Shown here piece by piece: positions 3,282 to 46,820 of a stretch of DNA of 64,000 nt. This stretch comes from Vicinamibacterales bacterium. Its GTDB lineage: Bacteria; Acidobacteriota; Vicinamibacteria; Vicinamibacterales; 2-12-FULL-66-21. The DNA is taken from positions 62,001-126,000 of the forward strand of contig DASSPH010000107.1 in assembly GCA_035699745.1 (NCBI GenBank), in the 5' to 3' direction. Position numbers and translations under genes: made by a program. A model generated the notes under the pieces. It was not told the origin of the DNA. It did not search any database and saw nothing but the letters and a program-made list of their open reading frames with translations. Each line of letters begins with the position of its first letter. Within the stretch, counting starts at the first letter, position 1.

Positions 3282-6200
3282 CTAGGATTCTACGATCCCC
3301 AGGCGCTTGATGATCTTCGCCAGCCCCTGCCGCGTCACCCCGAGCTGCGCCGCGGCGCGGCTGCGCCGGCCGCCGGCACGGGCCAGCGCGGCGCGCACGA
3401 AGCGGCGCTCGAAGTCGTCGCGTGCGTCTTCGATTCGCGCCGTTTTCACCGTCGCCCCCGCGATGTGCACCGGCAGCAGCGCTGCGGGCAGGCGGCCGCG
3501 GCGCGGTCCGTGGACGGCGAGCGCCGCAATCACGTTCTGCAGCTCCCGGACGTTGCCGGGCCAGTCGTAGCGCGCCAGCGCCCCGACCACCTCGGGCCCG
3601 AGCGTCGCGCGGGTGCCGACGCGCGCGGCCGCCTCGCGCCAGATCCGCTCCACCAGCCAGGGCACGTCGTCCGGCCGATCGCGCAGCGGCGGGATCACAA
3701 TCCGGATCACGTCGAGCCTGAAGCGGAGGTCGGCGCGAAATCGCCCCGCGCGCACCTCCGCGTCCAGCGGGCGGTTGGTGGCGGCGACGACCCGGGTATC
3801 GATTCGCCGCGCCATGTTCTCGCCGACGCGGCGGATCTCCCCTTCCTGCAGGACGCGCAGGAGCTTGGCTTGCGCGCGTGGCGTGAGCTCCGCGGCCTCG
3901 TCGAGAAACAGCGTCCCCTGATCCGCTTCCTCGAAGAGGCCGGGACGCTCCGAGACGGCGCCGGTGAACGCGCCGCGGGCATGGCCGAACAGCTCCGCTT
4001 CGAGCAGGTCGTCGGCCAGCGCGGCGCAGTTCACGGCGCACAACTTCCTGGCACGCCTGGCGCTGCGGGCGTGAATCGCCCGCGCGACGAGCTCCTTTCC
4101 GCTCCCGCTCTCCCCTTCGATCAGCACCGGATACGGCGCGATGGCGGCGCGGCGGATCGCGTCGCGCACGCGTTCGGCGGAGGGTCCCGGCCCGAGCAGC
4201 TCGTCCGGGTAGCTCGCTTCGGGCGCGACCGGCCCCTTGGGAACGATGTGAAGCGTGCGCAGCAGCGGCGCGGCAGCGACGGCCGCGGTTCGCAGGACGT
4301 CCCTGACGCGCGGGACCGGCGGCCGGGCGCCCCGGACCCAACGCACCGCGAGCGCGCCGAGAATCGACGCGCCGGCGAGGATTGGCTCCGCCGCCGACGG
4401 GGTCGCGCCGTCGTCCAGCAGCGTGCCCGCGCCGTCGAGCACCGCGCGGGTCACGGTCTCTTCGCCGTTCCACGTGCGTCCCGCGCTGGCGACGACGCTG
4501 CCCAGTACAGCGGAGCGGATGACCACGGAACAGGCGTCCAGCGAGGAATGCAGGTCGATGGCGATCCCTTGGAGGGCTGCCGGCTCGTCGGGCGCATCGT
4601 GAATCACCGTGACGAGCGCGCGGAAGCAGTGAATCAGATCGGTCGAGCGAGGGGCGACGGAGACGATCGCCGCGTCTTCCAGCGTCGCGGCGTGAAGCGC
4701 GGCGCGGATGCACGCGCCGGAGAGGACCGGCAGCCGCTTCGCCGCGCGCAGCAGCCGATCGCGCATCGCCGGGTTGCGGACGCCGCACTGTTCCAGACAG
4801 GCCAGTACCTCGGCGGCCACGCGCAGCCGGCGCGCCGGTGAGCGCGCGGCACGCGCGAACGCCTCGGCGGCGGCGGCGTGCTCCCGCACGGCGGCCAGCG
4901 ATCCCATGGCCGCCTGCACCTGCGCCATGGCGAGGTGGGCGGCAGACCCGGCCTCGGCGTCCTCGCCCGCGGCGGCGATGGCGCGGGTCGCGGCCCGCGC
5001 GGCGCCGGCGAGATCGCCGTGCAGCCGCGCGATCACCGAGAGAAGGGCGGAATCCGCCTCGCCGAGCGCGTCCTCCGCGGCATCGATGCGGCCGCGCAGC
5101 ATCAACGCCTCGGCCAGCCACCGCCGCGCGCTCGCCTGTGGCGAACGATCGGCGAGGCAGGCGGTGCGAAAGAGGCCCTCCGCGTCGGCGATGCGCCCCT
5201 GCTCGAGCAGCGCGCGGCCGGATCCGATCATCGCGCGCGCCGCGAACGCGCCATCCTTCGCCCAGCCCTGGGCGCGCTGAAATGCGGCGAACGCGTCGGC
5301 GGGCCGTCCGCGATCGAGATACAGCTCGCCGAGCGCGCAGCCGGCCCCGGCGGCCTCTGCCTCCGCGCCGCGGGCCGCGAGCGCGCCCGCACAGCGCTCC
5401 AGGACTCGCGCCGCGCGCGCGTGCCGTCCGCGGCGCACCAGCGCGTCCGCGGCTTCGACGGCGCGCTGCAGCCGCGCGACCCCGCCGGAGGCCGGGCGCG
5501 CCACCGCCGGCGCCACGCGGGGATTCACCGCGTACCCGGGCGCGCTCTCGTGCACCCACGACACCGCGCGCCACTCCGTCCCGCGCCGGTTCGACAATGC
5601 CTCGATCAGCGCACCGGGCAGTCCGGCGCGGCCGTCGATCGCGGCGCGCACCTCCGCGGCCGTCGGACCGGATTCCGGATCGAGATAGATCGCACTCGTC
5701 AGCTCTCGCGTCATCAAAGGCTCCAGGCCGACCGATCCCGCACCGGCAGGATGGCGGCAGAAACGAATCCACACGTGGCGCCGTGCCCCCGCAGACGACG
5801 CCAGCGCGAGCAGCGGCGGCAGCGACGTCTCGCGCGACAGCCAGTCGATCACGCACACGTGCCGTGCCGGCACGAGCAGTTCGTCGAGTGCGCCGAACCG
5901 GCTGTCGGCGACCAGATAGCCGGCGAGCCGCGCCGCTCGGGCGATCTGCACGCGTGCCGTCCGCAACCCGGTGCCGACCGATCCGCAGACCGCCAGCTCG
6001 GTCACGCCGGGCGGTCCCGTGCTTTCCAGCACCGTCCGCACCGTGTCGAAGGCTCGCCGCGGCTGCAGGCGGACGCCGACCGGCCGGCGGTGTCCGCCGG
6101 ATGCCGTGTCGATCGCCGGCCGCACGTTGCGCGCCGCCGCCGCGGCATCGAGCTCGATCCCGCACGAGCGCAGGAACCGCACCAGGTGCAGCGCCGACGT

Positions 6201-39598: not shown

Positions 39599-40042
39599 AT
39601 GAAACGGACATCGGGTGCGGTCCGCACCGCGGAACTGCAGGCCCGCGCCCTGCGGCAGACGCGGCGCAAGCACTCACGCGAAACGGCGGAAGACTACGTC
39701 GAAGCGATCGCCGAACTGACCGCCAGCACCGGCGAAGCCCGCGCCGTGGATCTCGCGCGCCGGCTCGGCGTCTCGCACGTCACGGTCATCCGCACGGTGG
39801 CGCGGCTGCAGCGCGACGGCTACACCTCGAGCCAGCCGTATCGCGCGATCTTCCTCACCGCCCGCGGCGCGCGGCTCGCCCGCCAGTCGCGCGAGCGGCA
39901 CGAGCTGGTCGTCGACTTCCTGCGCTCGCTCGGCATCCCCGAGGCGGTCGTGCAAGAGGATGCGGAGGGGATCGAGCACCACGTCAGCGCGCAGACCCTC
40001 GCCGCGTTCCGCCGTCACCTGCAGCGGTCAGGCCGGTCGTAG
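39599..40042 (+). CDS. mntR: DtxR/MntR-family metal-dependent regulator
   Basis: The 147-residue protein starts with the DtxR-type winged helix: S-R-E-T-A-E-D-Y-V-E-A-I, A-V-D-L-A-R-R-L-G-V-S-H-V-T-V-I-R-T-V-A-R-L (helix-turn-helix, about 47-68). The dimerisation/metal region is rich in Glu and His (A-V-V-Q-E-D-A-E-G-I-E-H-H-V). It lacks the SH3-like third domain of DtxR, so its length matches MntR. Such proteins repress metal uptake genes when bound to Mn or Fe. It is divergent from the porin-cupredoxin-diheme operon and overlaps the convergent TauE gene by 15 bp. Confidence 0.9.
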   Translation: MKRTSGAVRTAELQARALRQTRRKHSRETAEDYVEAIAELTASTGEARAVDLARRLGVSHVTVIRTVARLQRDGYTSSQPYRAIFLTARGARLARQSRERHELVVDFLRSLGIPEAVVQEDAEGIEHHVSAQTLAAFRRHLQRSGRS

Positions 40043-40753
40043 CACCATCCACGCGCCGAGCGCGAGCAGCAGCAGCGCGACCACGATCCTGAACACCCGC
40101 TCCGGAATCCGCGGCAGCAGCCGCATGCCCGCCACCGTGCCGAGCAGCACGCCGGCGGTCGCGAGGCCGATGAGCCAGGCCATCGACACCAGCCGCGGCC
40201 ATTCACCCGCCAGGTACACCGGCAGCCGCGCGGCGTCCACGATCAGGCCGACGGCGGTCGCGGTCGCGACGAATGCGCGCTTGTCCGTCTCGAACGCCAG
40301 CAGCGCAGCCGAACGGATGCCCCCCTGGTTTCCCACCATGCCGCCCAGCAGACCCGACAGCGCGCCGACGAACCACGCCGTGCGCCGGCCGAGCCGCACG
40401 CGCGACATGAATCCGGTGAGCTCGGAGCAGCCGACGAACAGCAGCAGGCCGCCGAAGACGATGGCGAGCGCCCGGCTGGACGCCCACGCATGCAGCAGCG
40501 CCCCGGCCAGGCCGCCGGCGGCGCTCGTCGCGCCGAACCACACGAAGATCCGCCGATCGAGGCGGCTCCGCAGCAGCCAGAAGCGCAGCGCGGTGCCCGC
40601 GACGTGAGGGATCGCCACCGCCGCCACCGCCAGCTTGGCGTCCACCCGGAGCGCCAGCAGCGGCGTCAGCACGCTGCCGATGCCGAACCCGGCGAGCGCG
40701 GCGATCATCCCGGCGAGCAGCGCTCCCGCCGATACCGCCAGCTCGTACCACAT
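40028..40753 (-). CDS. TauE/SafE-family membrane transporter
   Basis: The 241-residue protein has about eight helices and the internal-repeat motifs of the TauE/SafE family: A-A-L-A-G-F-G-I-G-S-V-L-T-P, G-L-L-G-G-M-V-G-N-Q-G-G-I. The family exports sulfite or organosulfur anions, though many members have no known substrate. It follows the copper ATPase by 19 bp in the same operon, and a role in copper or sulfur stress is inferred. It overlaps the DtxR-type gene at its 3' end by 15 bp. Confidence 0.9.
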   Translation of the reverse strand: MWYELAVSAGALLAGMIAALAGFGIGSVLTPLLALRVDAKLAVAAVAIPHVAGTALRFWLLRSRLDRRIFVWFGATSAAGGLAGALLHAWASSRALAIVFGGLLLFVGCSELTGFMSRVRLGRRTAWFVGALSGLLGGMVGNQGGIRSAALLAFETDKRAFVATATAVGLIVDAARLPVYLAGEWPRLVSMAWLIGLATAGVLLGTVAGMRLLPRIPERVFRIVVALLLLALGAWMVLRPA

Positions 40754-40772: not shown

Positions 40773-43172
40773 TCACAACGACACGCGCCGCAGGCGCAGC
40801 GCGTTGCCGATCACCGACACGGAGCTGAACGTCATGGCGGCGCTCGCGATCATCGGGCTGAGGAGGAGCCCGAACACGGGATACAGCACGCCGGCCGCGA
40901 CCGGCACGCCGATCACGTTGTAGACGAAGGCGAAGAACAGGTTCTGCCGGATGTTCGTCATCGTCGCGCGGCTGAGGCGCCGGGCGCGGACGATGCCGGC
41001 CAGGTCTCCTTTGACGAGCGTGACGCCCGCGCTTTCGATCGCGACGTCCGTGCCGGTGCCCATCGCGATGCCCACGTCAGCCTGGGCGAGCGCCGGCGCG
41101 TCGTTGATGCCGTCGCCCGCCATCGCGATGCGGCCGCCGCCGCGCTGCAGCTCGCGCACCACCTCCGCTTTGCGCGCCGGCAGGACGTCCGCTTCGACGC
41201 GGTCGATGTTCACGGCGCGCGCGACGTGGTCCGCCGTCGCCCGGCTGTCTCCGGTGAGCATCACCACCCGGATGCCGTCCTCGTGCAGCGCCTTGATCGC
41301 GTCCGCCGCCCCCTTCTTGATCGGATCCGCCACCGCCAGCACGCCCGCCGCCGCGCCGTCGATGGTGACGAACATCGCCGTCTGTCCCTGCGTGCGCAGC
41401 TGCTCCGCCTGCTGCGCGAAGCCGCCGGGGTCGATGCGCCTGGTCTCGAGGTGGGTGAGATTGCCGACCGAGACGTCCCGGCCGGCGACATGCCCCGCGA
41501 CCCCCTGACCGGTCGTCGACTGGAACCCGGCGACCTTTTCGAACGCCAGTCCGCGTTCCTGCGCCGCGGCCGCGATTGCCGTGGCGAGCGGGTGCTCGCT
41601 CACGTGCTCCACGCTCGCGGCAAGCCGCAGCAGCTCGTTCGCATCGACGCCCGGCGCCGGAATCACGTTCACCAGCCGCGGGCGTCCTTCAGTCAGCGTC
41701 CCGGTCTTGTCGACGACGAGGGTCGTCACCTTCTCGAGGACCTCGAGCGCTTCCGCGTCGCGGAACAGCACGCCCGCTTCCGCTCCTCGGCCCGTGCCGA
41801 CCATGATCGACATCGGCGTCGCCAGCCCGAGCGCGCACGGGCAGGCGATGATCAGGACCGCCACCGCGTTGACCAGCGCATGCGCCAGTCGCGGATCCGG
41901 TCCCCACGTCGACCACACGACGAACGTGACGAGCGCCACGCCGATGACGATCGGCACGAACCACGCCGACACCGTGTCGGCCAGCCGTTGGATCGGCGCG
42001 CGCGACCGCTGCGCCTCTCCGACCATGCGGACGATCTGGGCGAGCAGCGTGTCCGCGCCGACGCGGCGCGCCTCCATCACCACGCTGCCGGTGCCGTTCA
42101 CCGTCCCGCCGGTGACGGGGGATCCGGCGATCTTCTCCACCGGGATTGGCTCGCCGGTCACCATCGACTCGTCCACGGTGGTGTGGCCGTCGACGACGAC
42201 GCCGTCCACGGGGATCCGCTCGCCGGGCCGGACGCGCAGCCGATCGCCCGGATGCACGTGCTCGAGCGGAATGTCGGCCTCGGCGCCGTCCGCGCCGATC
42301 CGGCGCGCCGTCTTCGGCGCGAGCCCCAGCAGGTTGCGGATCGCGGCGCCGGTGCGGCCTCGCGCGCGCAGTTCGAGCACCTGTCCGAGCAGCACGAGGA
42401 CGACGATGACCGCGGCGGGTTCGAAGTAGACCGCCACCTGCCCGTGCATCCGAGACGCCTCGGGGAACACCCCCGGCGCGATCGTTCCGACGACGCTGTA
42501 GACGAACGCCGCGCCGACGCCGAGCGCGATCAGCGTGAACATGTTCAGGTGACGGCTGACGATCGAGGCCCAGCCGCGCTCGAAGAACGGCAGGCCGCCC
42601 CAGAGCACGACCGGCGCGGCGAATGCCATCTCGATCCAGTTCCTCCAGCCGTGCGGGAGCAGCGTCTGCAGCGGATCTCCGGGCAGCAGCTCCGACACCA
42701 TGAACGCCAGAATCGGCAGGGTCAGCGCAAACGAGATGCGGAGCCGCCGCGTCATGTCGTCCAGCTCGGGGTTCCCCTCGTCGACCGAAGCGTCGACGGG
42801 CTCCAGCGCCATGCCGCAGATCGGACACGACCCCGGTCCGATCTGGCGGATCTCGGGGTGCATGGGACAGGTGTATTCCGTCTGCGCGGCGGGAGCCCCG
42901 TGCGCCGGCCCGGCGTGCGCCGCGGGCTGAGGCGGCGCCGCCGGCGGCCCGGCTGGCGCAGCCGGATGCTTGCGGTGCAGCGTCACCGGCGCGGCCATCG
43001 CCGCAGGCGGGCGCCCGGGCCCCAGATAGAGGTCCGGATTGGCGTCGAACCTGGCTTGACAGCCTTTCGAACAGAAATAGTAGGTCTTGCCCGCGTGCAG
43101 GCTCGATCCCGCGGCCTTCGCGGGATCGACCACCATGCCGCAGACGACGTCGCGCTCCATGTGCGTCTCCAT
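40773..43172 (-). CDS. copA: Copper-translocating P1B-type ATPase with N-terminal YHS and heavy-metal domains
   Basis: The 799-residue pump starts with a YHS domain ([17 protein letters not shown]) and a [14 protein letters not shown] heavy-metal-binding domain (about 97-123). The catalytic core has T-G-E-P phosphatase, D-K-T-G-T-L-T phosphorylation (about 497) and S-E-H-P-L-A motifs. The transport site C-P-C in TM6 and Y-N-V-I-G / M-T-F-S-S in the last helices fit Cu(I)-exporting P1B-1 pumps. It sits between the Cys-tailed sigma factor gene (34 bp upstream) and a TauE gene. Confidence 0.95.
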
Positions 43173-43206
43173 TCTCCGCTTCTCTGCCAGGGAAACGCAG
43201 CAGCGG

Positions 43207-43770
43207 TCAGTTCATTACATGCGCGCGGCAGGTGCAATCGACGCAGCCGTGCTCGGCACAGGTGCCGCAGGACTGCGTCACCCGCTTGCGGAGCGCCTCG
43301 CGGGCGCGAAAGACGCGCACGCCGGCATTGCTGGCGGTCAGCCGACGGGTCTCGGCGAAGGTCTTGACCGGCAGCCCCTCGACGTCGACGCTGCGCAGCA
43401 CGTCGGCGTATTCGGGCTTCAGCGTCGCGGCGAGCCGCGTCACGCACGCGCAGATCTCCGCGGCCATGTCCGGCGCCGGCTCGTGCCGGGTCTCCAACTC
43501 CCTGGCAAAGGCCTCCATCGCCCGGCCGGCGGCCCCGCGCCGCCGGTGATAGTCGATCGCGGCGTTGCGCAAGGTTCGATAGAACCACGGCACGATCGCT
43601 TCGTCCTGCAGCGTCTCGACGCGCTCGAGATTGCGCGTGAACGCCTCCTGGAGAATGTCTTCGGCGGCGCCGCGATCGCCCACCTTGCGCTCGAGGTACC
43701 GCAGGAACGCGCGATGATTCTCGAGCAGCGTCTGCAGCGCGGCGGGCGGGTCGGCAGCGTCCTCTGGCAT
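43207..43770 (-). CDS. ECF sigma factor with C-terminal Cys-rich metal-binding tail (CorE-like)
   Basis: The 187-residue sigma-70-family protein has region 2 ([22 protein letters not shown]) and region 4 with a helix-turn-helix ([21 protein letters not shown]). The C-terminus carries [14 protein letters not shown], five cysteines. In Myxococcus, CorE sigma factors use a similar Cys-rich tail to sense copper. No anti-sigma gene is adjacent, and the neighbours are copper export and oxidation genes. It starts at 43770, 6 nt after its own TATACT -10, and leads the operon with copA and the TauE gene. Confidence 0.85.
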
Positions 43771-43776
43771 CCGATC

Positions 43777-43803
43777 AGTATAGGGCGCGCGACGGGCTAT
43801 ACT
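43777..43803. promoter_or_regulatory. Divergent promoter palindrome of the copper island
   Basis: AGTATAG (43777-43783) and CTATACT (43797-43803) are perfect 7-bp inverted arms 13 bp apart. Each arm holds a TATACT -10 pointing outward, 6 nt before the sigma gene's ATG (minus) and 6 nt before the GTG of the small exported protein (plus). Both gene starts fit leaderless transcription from symmetric promoters. Confidence 0.6.
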
Positions 43804-43809
43804 CGAACG

Positions 43810-44196
43810 GTGCGGGATCGTTGGCACCGGTTGACGGCGGCGGCGCTCGTGTTCCTGTTCGCGATGTGCGCGGGCGCGGATGTGTTGTGCGCGGCGCCGT
43901 GCCGCACCGCCGCCCAGCCGGTCGGCGACACCTCGTCCGCACCCGCCGCTCACTGCCAGTCGATGCCCTCACCTGCCGACGCGGTGCGATTCACCCCGGC
44001 GAACTCCTGCACGGGCGAACATGGCGTGCTGGCGCCGGCAGAGGTCACGTCGCGCCGCGCCGTCGCCGACACCCCGGCCGCGCTGCCGCTGCCGTCGTCA
44101 CTCTGGCCGCACCTCGGGCACTCCCTGTTCGACGGGACGGCGGCCCGCGCGCCGCATCCCGGCTCATCCGGTCCGCGTCCTCCGCTCCGCATCTGA
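43810..44196 (+). CDS. Small exported protein of the copper island
   Basis: The 128-residue product has a signal-like segment (L-T-A-A-A-L-V-F-L-F-A-M-C-A-G-A) and a short mature chain with C-A-A-P-C-R, A-H-C-Q-S-M and C-T-G-E-H. It has a low-complexity Pro/Ala tail with W-P-H-L-G-H. The Cys, His and Met residues could bind copper, but no family is recognised. It is placed between the CorE-like sigma gene and the multicopper oxidase, reading in the same direction as the oxidase (93 bp away). The GTG 6 nt after TATACT is the chosen start. Confidence 0.65.
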   Translation: MRDRWHRLTAAALVFLFAMCAGADVLCAAPCRTAAQPVGDTSSAPAAHCQSMPSPADAVRFTPANSCTGEHGVLAPAEVTSRRAVADTPAALPLPSSLWPHLGHSLFDGTAARAPHPGSSGPRPPLRI

Positions 44197-44289
44197 TCGT
44201 CCCGCTCGCCTGACCTCGCGCTCCGGGTGCGCGCGCCTGTAATGCGCCCGCCGGCGGTGCGTGATCCATTCAGCCGTTGAGAGGGAGAC

Positions 44290-46029
44290 ATGCGGGAACA
44301 CGAGATTTCGAGAAGAACGTTCGTCACGGGGCTCGCCGCCGGCGGCGCGCTCGCGGCCGCAGGCGTGTGGCAGCCGCGGCTGTCGGCGCAGACCGGCGCC
44401 GCGCGCGAGTTGTCCGGCAGCACGTTCGACCTGCGCATCGGAGAGACTCCGGTGGATTTCACCGGCCGGGGGCGGATCGCCTATACCGTCAACGGATCGC
44501 TGCCCGCGCCGACGCTGCGGTGGCGCGAAGGGGACACCGTCACGCTGCGCGTGCACAACGCGCTCGCGCACGAGGACACGTCGATTCACTGGCACGGCAT
44601 CCTGCTGCCCGCCAGCATGGACGGCGTTCCAGGACTGAGCTTCGCGGGAATCCGTCCAGGTGAGACCTTCACCTACCGGTTCACGGTGAAGCAGCACGGC
44701 ACCTACTGGTACCACAGCCACTCCGGCTTCGATGAGCAGCGCGGTCTGTATGGGGCGTTGATCATCGACCCGGCGTCGCCCGGGCGCCGCTCCTGCGACC
44801 GCGAGCACGTGGTGCTGCTCTCCGACTGGACCGACGCGGATCCGCGGACCGTTCTCGCTAAGTTGAAGAAGCAGTCCGACTACTTCAATCGCAACCAGCG
44901 CACGGTCGGCGACTTCGTGCGCGACGTGCGCCGGCAGGGGCTCGGGGCGGCGCTCGCGGACAGGCGCATGTGGAACCAGATGCGGATGAAGTCCACGGAT
45001 CTCGCCGACGTGACCGGCAGCACCTACACGTATCTGATGAACGGCGCGGCGCCGAACGCCAACTGGACCGGACTCGTCGCGCGCGGCGAGCGGGTGCTGC
45101 TGCGGTTCATCAACGGATCGGCGCAGACCTACTTCGACGTGCGCATTCCCGGCCTCAAGTTGACCGTCGTCGCGGCCGACGGCCAGCCGGTGCGGCCCGT
45201 CGAAGTGGACGAGTTCCGCATCGCCACGGCCGAGACCTACGACGTCATCGTCGAACCTTCGGATCAGGACGCGTACACGATCTTCGCGCAGTCGCTGGAT
45301 CGGAGCGGCTTCGCCGCCGGCACGCTCGCCGTCCGCGCCGGACTCCGTGCGGCGGTTCCCCCGCTCGATGCCCGGCAGGAATTGACGATGGCGGACATGG
45401 GACACGGCGCCGCCGCGCCCGCTGCTGCGGATCCACACGCCGGGCACCACATGCCGCAGCCGGACCCTCATGCCGGGCACGCGATGCCGGCGGCGGAGGC
45501 GGCCGTTCAGCAGCACCCGCCCACCGAGCGCGGCAATCCGCTGGTCGACATGCAGGCGATGCATCCGGTGCCGCGGCTGGACGATCCGGGCGTCGGCCTT
45601 CGCGGCAACGGCCGGCGCGTGCTCACCTACGCCGACCTGCAGAGCGCGTTCGATGACCCGGACGGCCGGGAGCCGGTGCGGACGATCGAGATGCACCTCA
45701 CCGGGCACATGGAGAAGTTCACCTGGTCGATCGACGGCGTGGAGTTCGCCGATGCGCACCCGGTCCATCTGAAGTACGGCGAGCGCGTCCGAATCGTGCT
45801 GGTGAACGACACGATGATGTCGCACCCCATTCACCTTCATGGCATGTGGAGCGACCTCGAGGACGAGCAGGGGGCCTTCAAAGTGCGCAAGCACACCATC
45901 GACATGCCACCCGGCACGAGGCGCAGCTATCGCGTCCGCGCCGACGCGCTCGGCCGGTGGGCGTTCCATTGTCATCTGCTCTACCACATGGAGTCGGGAA
46001 TGTTTCGTGAAGTGCGGGTGGAAGAATGA
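44290..46029 (+). CDS. pcoA: Tat-exported multicopper oxidase (CopA/PcoA type)
   Basis: The 579-residue periplasmic oxidase detoxifies Cu(I). A twin-arginine signal S-R-R-T-F-V-T-G is present, then all copper motifs: H-W-H-G-I-L and W-Y-H-S-H-S-G in the first domain, H-P-I-H-L-H-G-M-W and H-C-H-L-L-Y-H-M-E near the C-terminus. A Met/His-rich linker (about 372-425, repeats such as A-D-P-H-A-G-H-H-M) resembles the Cu-binding loops of the CopA resistance family. GAGGGAG precedes the ATG. It overlaps the copB gene by 4 bp. Confidence 0.95.
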   Translation: MREHEISRRTFVTGLAAGGALAAAGVWQPRLSAQTGAARELSGSTFDLRIGETPVDFTGRGRIAYTVNGSLPAPTLRWREGDTVTLRVHNALAHEDTSIHWHGILLPASMDGVPGLSFAGIRPGETFTYRFTVKQHGTYWYHSHSGFDEQRGLYGALIIDPASPGRRSCDREHVVLLSDWTDADPRTVLAKLKKQSDYFNRNQRTVGDFVRDVRRQGLGAALADRRMWNQMRMKSTDLADVTGSTYTYLMNGAAPNANWTGLVARGERVLLRFINGSAQTYFDVRIPGLKLTVVAADGQPVRPVEVDEFRIATAETYDVIVEPSDQDAYTIFAQSLDRSGFAAGTLAVRAGLRAAVPPLDARQELTMADMGHGAAAPAAADPHAGHHMPQPDPHAGHAMPAAEAAVQQHPPTERGNPLVDMQAMHPVPRLDDPGVGLRGNGRRVLTYADLQSAFDDPDGREPVRTIEMHLTGHMEKFTWSIDGVEFADAHPVHLKYGERVRIVLVNDTMMSHPIHLHGMWSDLEDEQGAFKVRKHTIDMPPGTRRSYRVRADALGRWAFHCHLLYHMESGMFREVRVEE

Positions 46030-46820
46030 GCCGGCGCGCTCTGGTTCCGCTCTCGATCGCGGTGCTGTGCGGCGCACTCGCCGCGACTGCCTCCGCGCAG
46101 CAGCCGCTCCCGAAGGAGCCGATCCCGCCGGTGACGGAGGCCGACCGCGAGGCCGCCTTTCCACAAGGGCTCGACGGGCACGCGGTCCACGATCGCCGCA
46201 TCAACTACTTCGTGCTGTTCGATCAGCTCGAGTGGCAGAGCGGATCGGGCCGCGGACTGAACCTCGACAACACCACGTGGATCGGCGGCGACATCGATCG
46301 CGTCTGGCTGCGCGGCGAGATGGACGCCGACGAGGGGCGCGTCGATCACGCGTCAGTGCACGCGCTCTGGGGTCACAGCATCTCGCGATGGTGGGATGTG
46401 GTCGCCGGCGTGCGTCAGGACTTTCGCCCCGGCGATCCGCGGACCATGGCCGCCGTCGGCATCCAGGGACTCGCGCCCTACTGGTTCGACGTGCAGGCGA
46501 CCGCGTACGTGGGAGGCGGAGGACGCACCTCGGTCCGCCTCGAAGCCGAGTACGACATGCTGCTGACCAATCGCCTCATCGCGCAGCCGCTCGTCGAGAT
46601 CGAGCTCCATGGCAAGACGGATCCGGCGCGGCAGATCGGTGCCGGCCTGAGCACGATCGAAACAGGCGTGCGCGTGCGCTACGAATTCCGGCGGGAGCTC
46701 GCGCCGTACATCGGCGTGACGTGGTCGAGAAAGACGTTCGGCACCGCCGATTTTGCGCGAGCCGTCGGCGAGGATCCGAGCCGCGTCCGCATGACCGTGG
46801 GCCTGAGGACCTGGTTCTAG
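46026..46820 (+). CDS. copB: Copper resistance outer-membrane protein CopB-like
   Basis: The 264-residue product has a signal peptide and a beta-rich barrel: F-D-Q-L-E-W-Q-S-G, W-G-H-S-I-S-R-W-W-D, G-V-T-W-S-R-K-T-F-G-T-A and the C-terminal T-V-G-L-R-T-W-F. It matches the CopB/PcoB family, usually partnered with the CopA oxidase, and lacks a long Met-rich N-terminal tract. It shares a 4-bp overlap with the oxidase. It ends 4 bp before the convergent heme protein stop. Confidence 0.92.
   Translation: MSRRALVPLSIAVLCGALAATASAQQPLPKEPIPPVTEADREAAFPQGLDGHAVHDRRINYFVLFDQLEWQSGSGRGLNLDNTTWIGGDIDRVWLRGEMDADEGRVDHASVHALWGHSISRWWDVVAGVRQDFRPGDPRTMAAVGIQGLAPYWFDVQATAYVGGGGRTSVRLEAEYDMLLTNRLIAQPLVEIELHGKTDPARQIGAGLSTIETGVRVRYEFRRELAPYIGVTWSRKTFGTADFARAVGEDPSRVRMTVGLRTWF

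Follow-up and report, generated by a model that had tools for sequence, protein, structure and literature searches.

The window analyzed here, a stretch of 64,000 nucleotides from a soil acidobacterium of the order Vicinamibacterales, carries a copper gene cluster with two divergent arms (table 1). As the first-pass annotation had claimed, the gene for a sigma factor is followed on the minus strand by those for a YHS-CopA ATPase and a TauE-like transporter, and is divergent from genes encoding a small exported protein, a multicopper oxidase (MCO) and CopB on the plus strand. The MCO and CopB proteins strongly match the families of CopAB-type periplasmic copper resistance (TIGR01480 and PF05275), from which the cluster differs in that no two-component genes were found adjoining it, a predicted sigma promoter being present instead. 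The exported protein has no family match, and tblastn over the orthologue loci considered below found no homologue of it. The ATG of MCO is preceded by the Shine-Dalgarno-like (SD-like) sequence GAGAGGGAG, unlike the starts of the sigma and exported-protein genes, which appear to be leaderless. The true start of YHS-HMBD-CopA may be an in-frame ATG at 43160 with GGAG ahead of it, judging from the sequence and from comparison with two orthologue loci (L062 and L063). An MntR-like regulator scoring above the NCBIfam cut-off (39599-40042) adjoins the cluster, convergent with the TauE gene.

Table 1. Genes and predicted regulatory features of the copper cluster (window coordinates)
Feature	Position	Strand	Remarks
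TauE/SafE-like transporter	40028..40753	-	19 nt past CopA
YHS-HMBD-CopA copper P-type ATPase	40773..43172	-	behind sigma gene
Predicted sigma promoter TGTAAT-N16-CGTT, CopA-TauE	43194..43219	-	PWM 13.5, second in window; -35 inside 3' end of sigma gene
CorE-like ECF sigma factor, 187 aa	43207..43770	-	CxC linker C107/C109; tail C168-x2-C171-x4-C176-x2-C179-x-C181
27-bp inverted repeat AGTATAG-N13-CTATACT, probably two divergent TATACT -10 boxes	43777..43803	.	each box 6 nt before start codon
Small exported Cys/His-containing protein, 128 aa	43810..44196	+	putative leaderless GTG start; GC3 ~0.87
Predicted sigma promoter TGTAAT-N16-CGTG, MCO-CopB	44238..44263	+	PWM 22.8, best in window; 26 nt before MCO ATG, SD between
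Copper resistance multicopper oxidase (TIGR01480), Tat signal	44290..46029	+	
CopB outer-membrane copper protein (PF05275)	46026..46820	+	

The sigma factor consists of sigma2 and sigma4 domains only (Pfam Sigma70_r2, 49.5 bits; Sigma70_r4_2, 22.3 bits, just short of the 25.7 cut-off; TIGR02937 above its cut-off), to which a C-terminal Cys-rich tail is added. The five cysteines proposed for this tail are all present, in the pattern CxxCx4CxxCxC (gaps of 2, 4, 2 and 1 residues). Since the tail cysteines of CorE from Myxococcus xanthus are numbered 181, 184, 189, 192, 194 and 206 (PMC3107203), the first five are spaced as in the window's protein. C168, C171, C179 and C181 correspond, with equal spacing, to the four cysteines of the Cys-rich domain (CRD; CorE 181, 184, 192 and 194) that did not vary among the CRD sigma factors known in 2011, a group of 21 to which Acidobacteria contributed four. 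C176 is the equivalent of CorE Cys189, which is required for copper activation in M. xanthus (PMC3107203) and was found in 11 of those 21 proteins, several of them showing synteny with copper genes.

To follow these residues among orthologues we used 39 loci of a first set, of which L053 and L065 are apparently one contig (equal length, same sites), so that 38 are distinct, and 36 further loci that were left out of the weight matrix used below. The tail pattern is intact in 39/39 loci of the first set, all retaining the Cys189 equivalent, and in 32/36 of the held-out loci. The linker between sigma2 and sigma4 carries a CxC (C107-A-C109) that is invariant in our alignment and constitutes a signature of the former ECF44 group (PMC8999054). 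CorE itself was left unclassified in the published scheme of ECF groups (PMC8999054). No anti-sigma gene lies beside the sigma gene, its neighbours being CopA, TauE, the exported protein, MCO and CopB. The other matches in the same genome are at most 35% identical, leaving this gene as the sole close copy. AlphaFold pLDDT falls below 50 for tail residues 169-187, and the model is thus silent on metal geometry. Tail spacing, CxC linker, lack of a linked anti-sigma gene and copper context together support the assignment of the protein, initially described as CorE-like, to the CorE-like ECF factors (former ECF44, in part ECF238).

The two arms are separated by what had been called a symmetric promoter. 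The 27-bp inverted repeat is indeed found exactly at 43777-43803, but the name does not fit, its arms being apparently generic leaderless -10 boxes, one for the sigma gene (43782-43777; ATG at 43770, minus strand) and the other for the exported protein (43798-43803; GTG at 43810, plus strand). These TATACT boxes account for six of the seven bases of each arm and, with the last T of the -10 element at -7, transcription would begin at the start codon itself; no clear match to a TTGACA -35 element was seen by eye upstream of them. When the 39-bp intergenic region was shuffled, a perfect 7-bp inverted repeat arose in 2.5% of cases, so that the symmetry alone is only mildly unusual. The arrangement TATACT-N6-RTG occurs 17 times in the 6.3-Mb genome versus twice for the reversed control, and each of the 15 TATACT-N6-start matches found elsewhere in it stands ahead of an ORF whose GC3 looks coding (0.86-0.94); these ORFs include, from reading of their translations, a TypA-like GTPase, a MoaE-like protein and a threonine dehydratase-like protein. 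When the spacing to ATG was varied from 1 to 14 nt genome-wide, the matches listed peaked at spacing 6, with 13, against 8 at spacing 7 and 9 at spacing 8. The repeat is therefore probably a pair of divergent leaderless -10 boxes, not the sigma factor's own site. At L063/L020, an inverted repeat (ATAGGCAGCAG / CTGCTGCCTAT) lies ahead of TATACT-N6-ATG, upstream of the sigma start.

A different sequence, TGTAA(T/G)-N16-CGT(C/G/T), emerged from the orthologue loci, where it was first recognised, as TGTAA(G/T)-N16-CGT(C/G), ahead of the small Cys-rich ORFs that adjoin the sigma genes. Its form TGTAAK-N16-CGTS has 33 sites in 29 of the 39 first-set loci versus a total of 27 over 17 other spacings (8 to 25; mean of 1.6 each), a count that is not independent because the pattern was drawn by eye from part of that set. 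In the held-out loci, a slightly wider pattern set after CGTT and AAC variants had appeared (TGTAAB-N16-CGTB) gave 33 sites in 26/36 loci versus a total of 15 over 17 other spacings, these loci being relatives of the first set and hence held out yet not phylogenetically independent. Ten loci in each set have no motif in the stretch read, some of them being cut by contig ends. The 16-nt spacers vary freely. Most sites are followed, at a distance of 17-52 nt, by the SD and start codon of a YHS-CopA, CopZ-like or metallothionein-like gene. The genes following the sites (named, outside the window, from protein starts and tblastn) encode mainly YHS-CopA, YHS proteins, CopZ-like HMA proteins and metallothionein-like peptides, and an SD precedes the majority. 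The nearest relatives resemble the window in having the site directly behind the sigma gene, with YHS proteins or YHS-CopA encoded next. This distribution indicates that the motif is likely to be the promoter of the CorE-like sigma family.

We then scanned the window with a weight matrix (PWM) built from the orthologue loci, the window being excluded, although the site at 44238 had been spotted by eye beforehand. The two best matches (table 1), which are followed by a third scoring 10.3, point outward, one for each arm. In 100 order-2 Markov windows, none reaches the score of the MCO-CopB site, while scores of at least 13.5 average 0.15 sites per 64-kb window. The site on the CopA side scores modestly and departs from the consensus in its -10 (CGTT), and the MCO-CopB-side site is without direct orthologous support because no divergent MCO-CopB arm was seen adjoining the sigma gene in the nearest relatives. 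TGTAATG-N15-CGTK has three matches in the whole genome versus none in the control, two of the three being the window sites on which the pattern was shaped, so that the count shows rarity and not blind prediction. The claim of sigma control over both arms can thus be retained in part: the arms are probably controlled through separate outward promoters (44238-44263 and 43219-43194), not through the palindrome. The accompanying notion of a self-regulated circuit is unsupported: in the window the region ahead of the sigma gene contains no family motif, and this gene does not look autoregulated there.

Across 162 genomes of the order, the motif matches listed numbered 33 in 23 sigma-positive genomes, about 15 of them at sigma loci, and 91 in the 139 others. 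Merely having the motif is a weak sign that a genome has the sigma factor, since sigma-less genomes also have background matches (about 0.65 per genome); it is thus the position of a site that is informative, and a local regulon is predicted. Similar sites (TGTAATAG...CGCGTC; PWM 17.3 and 18.3) were observed near 3363 and 6266 of locus L126 (G000:C67:190500-200500), one before an ABC-permease-like gene and the other before a second ECF sigma and a protein with a zf-HC2-like N-terminus. This pair was left uncounted among the targets, as it is part of a different ECF system whose anti-sigma is apparently zf-HC2-like.

Among the closest known systems is CorE of M. xanthus (MXAN_3426; former ECF44), which shares the domain architecture, the five equally spaced cysteines, the absence of a linked anti-sigma and the vicinity of MCO and copper genes, its targets including copper ATPases and MCO. 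In the published CorE promoter, 16-18 nt separate the AAC of the -35 from a G in the -10, a spacing that agrees with TGTAAN-N16-CGT; the G also fits, but the -35 of the window type ends in AAT/AAG. The window's sigma factor further differs in lacking the sixth cysteine (C206, of minor role) and in belonging to an acidobacterium, with a predicted leaderless transcript, whereas CorE is myxobacterial. A further trait of the CorE-like group is an activity that depends on the redox state of copper. The TGTAAC form is found in alphaproteobacterial and Nitrospirota relatives. In particular, CRD sigmas on plasmids of Phenylobacterium zucineum and Roseobacter litoralis align at the four invariant tail cysteines and the CxC and have a TGTAAC/T-N16-CGTC motif nearby, but they carry another residue at the position of Cys189 (F in P. 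zucineum), and the neighbours in P. zucineum are mostly stress genes.

Other explanations for the arrangement can be weighed against these data. The palindrome itself might be bound by the sigma factor, or by a dimeric repressor or activator, steering both arms symmetrically; its perfect repeat is centred between the two start codons and is mildly rare in shuffles (see above), but both arms show the TATACT-N6-start arrangement seen before other coding-like ORFs genome-wide, the motif conserved beside orthologues is a different sequence in another place, and the 27-bp repeat is absent from L019 and L020, the two relatives with upstream DNA compared. The genome-wide occurrence of such boxes led us to discard the palindrome as an operator or sigma site, and we regard symmetric control through it as very improbable. 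Only a little less improbable is that another regulator, a two-component system of the CopRS/CusRS type or a MerR-type protein, governs the copper response of the cluster while the sigma factor acts elsewhere. The genome has many sensor kinases, with 33 matches to the CzcS/SilS/CopS model (the best just below its cut-off), and five MerR-type matches, but no CsoR was found in it, none of the MerR proteins showed by eye a clear Cys pair of the CueR type, and none of those regulators lies inside the cluster, whereas the family-specific predicted sigma promoters do.

The sigma factor could instead respond to Zn/Cd or to some other metal or stress that acts on thiols, with copper induction being indirect. 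The distribution of tail cysteines sets the metal specificity of CorE-like factors, and CorE2 responds to Cd/Zn (PMC8999054); here the Cys189 equivalent, tied to copper gene synteny in the 2011 survey, is present and the predicted targets are copper genes, which makes this explanation unlikely.

Taking family features, promoter motif and leaderless boxes from the sequence, and inferring copper activation, sigma binding and polymerase exclusion, we consider it quite probable that a sigma factor whose basal supply comes from a leaderless promoter is activated by copper through its own tail and linker and drives both arms from TGTAAT-N16-CGT(G/T) promoters, the palindrome representing leaderless boxes. 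The generic leaderless promoter would provide the basal level of the protein; copper bound to the Cys-rich tail and the CxC linker would then switch it on without an anti-sigma factor, and the active form would bring RNA polymerase to the two motif promoters. The promoter beginning in the end of the sigma gene would thereby express CopA-TauE for cytoplasmic copper export, and that between the exported protein and MCO would express MCO-CopB for periplasmic oxidation and outer-membrane handling. The back-to-back -10 boxes of the palindrome would serve the starts of the sigma and exported-protein genes; with these divergent start sites 39 bp apart and overlapping, two polymerases could hardly bind together and would presumably be mutually exclusive.

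Many orthologue loci have a distinct kind of neighbour, namely Cys-rich ORFs of 22-47 aa (for example MKCNSCECGEVCVCVVCGCKRNA) beside the CorE-like sigma gene, usually directly behind a TGTAA-N16-CGT site. They are found in L066, L068, L070, L072, L074-L076, L078-L080, L083, L055 and L056 of the first set, and in L145-L147, L155, L157, L159, L163 and L165 of the held-out set. Eight of these ORFs gave no match in searches against Pfam and NCBIfam, and a literature search for metallothioneins tied to CorE or Acidobacteria found nothing relevant. In no first-set locus were YHS-CopA/CopZ and a metallothionein-like peptide both observed close to the sigma gene. We are slightly inclined to the view that the CorE-like sigmas of Acidobacteriota and some Myxococcota share the TGTAA-N16-CGT promoter, with an adjoining effector that is either YHS-CopA/CopZ or an unnamed metallothionein-like class of this size. 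Where the metallothionein-like ORF lies ahead of the sigma gene, read-through could autoregulate the latter.

The sigma factor of the window belongs to the CorE type already known, and what is added is probably the promoter and the target set across Acidobacteriota. CorE-like sigmas, for which the literature found reports experimental work in one myxobacterium, would thus gain a testable promoter and targets throughout this phylum. The case also illustrates how two leaderless promoters of the ordinary kind can give rise to a striking palindrome. The motif would allow target prediction in unstudied soil bacteria and leads to very small metallothionein-like peptides that are absent from Pfam and NCBIfam.
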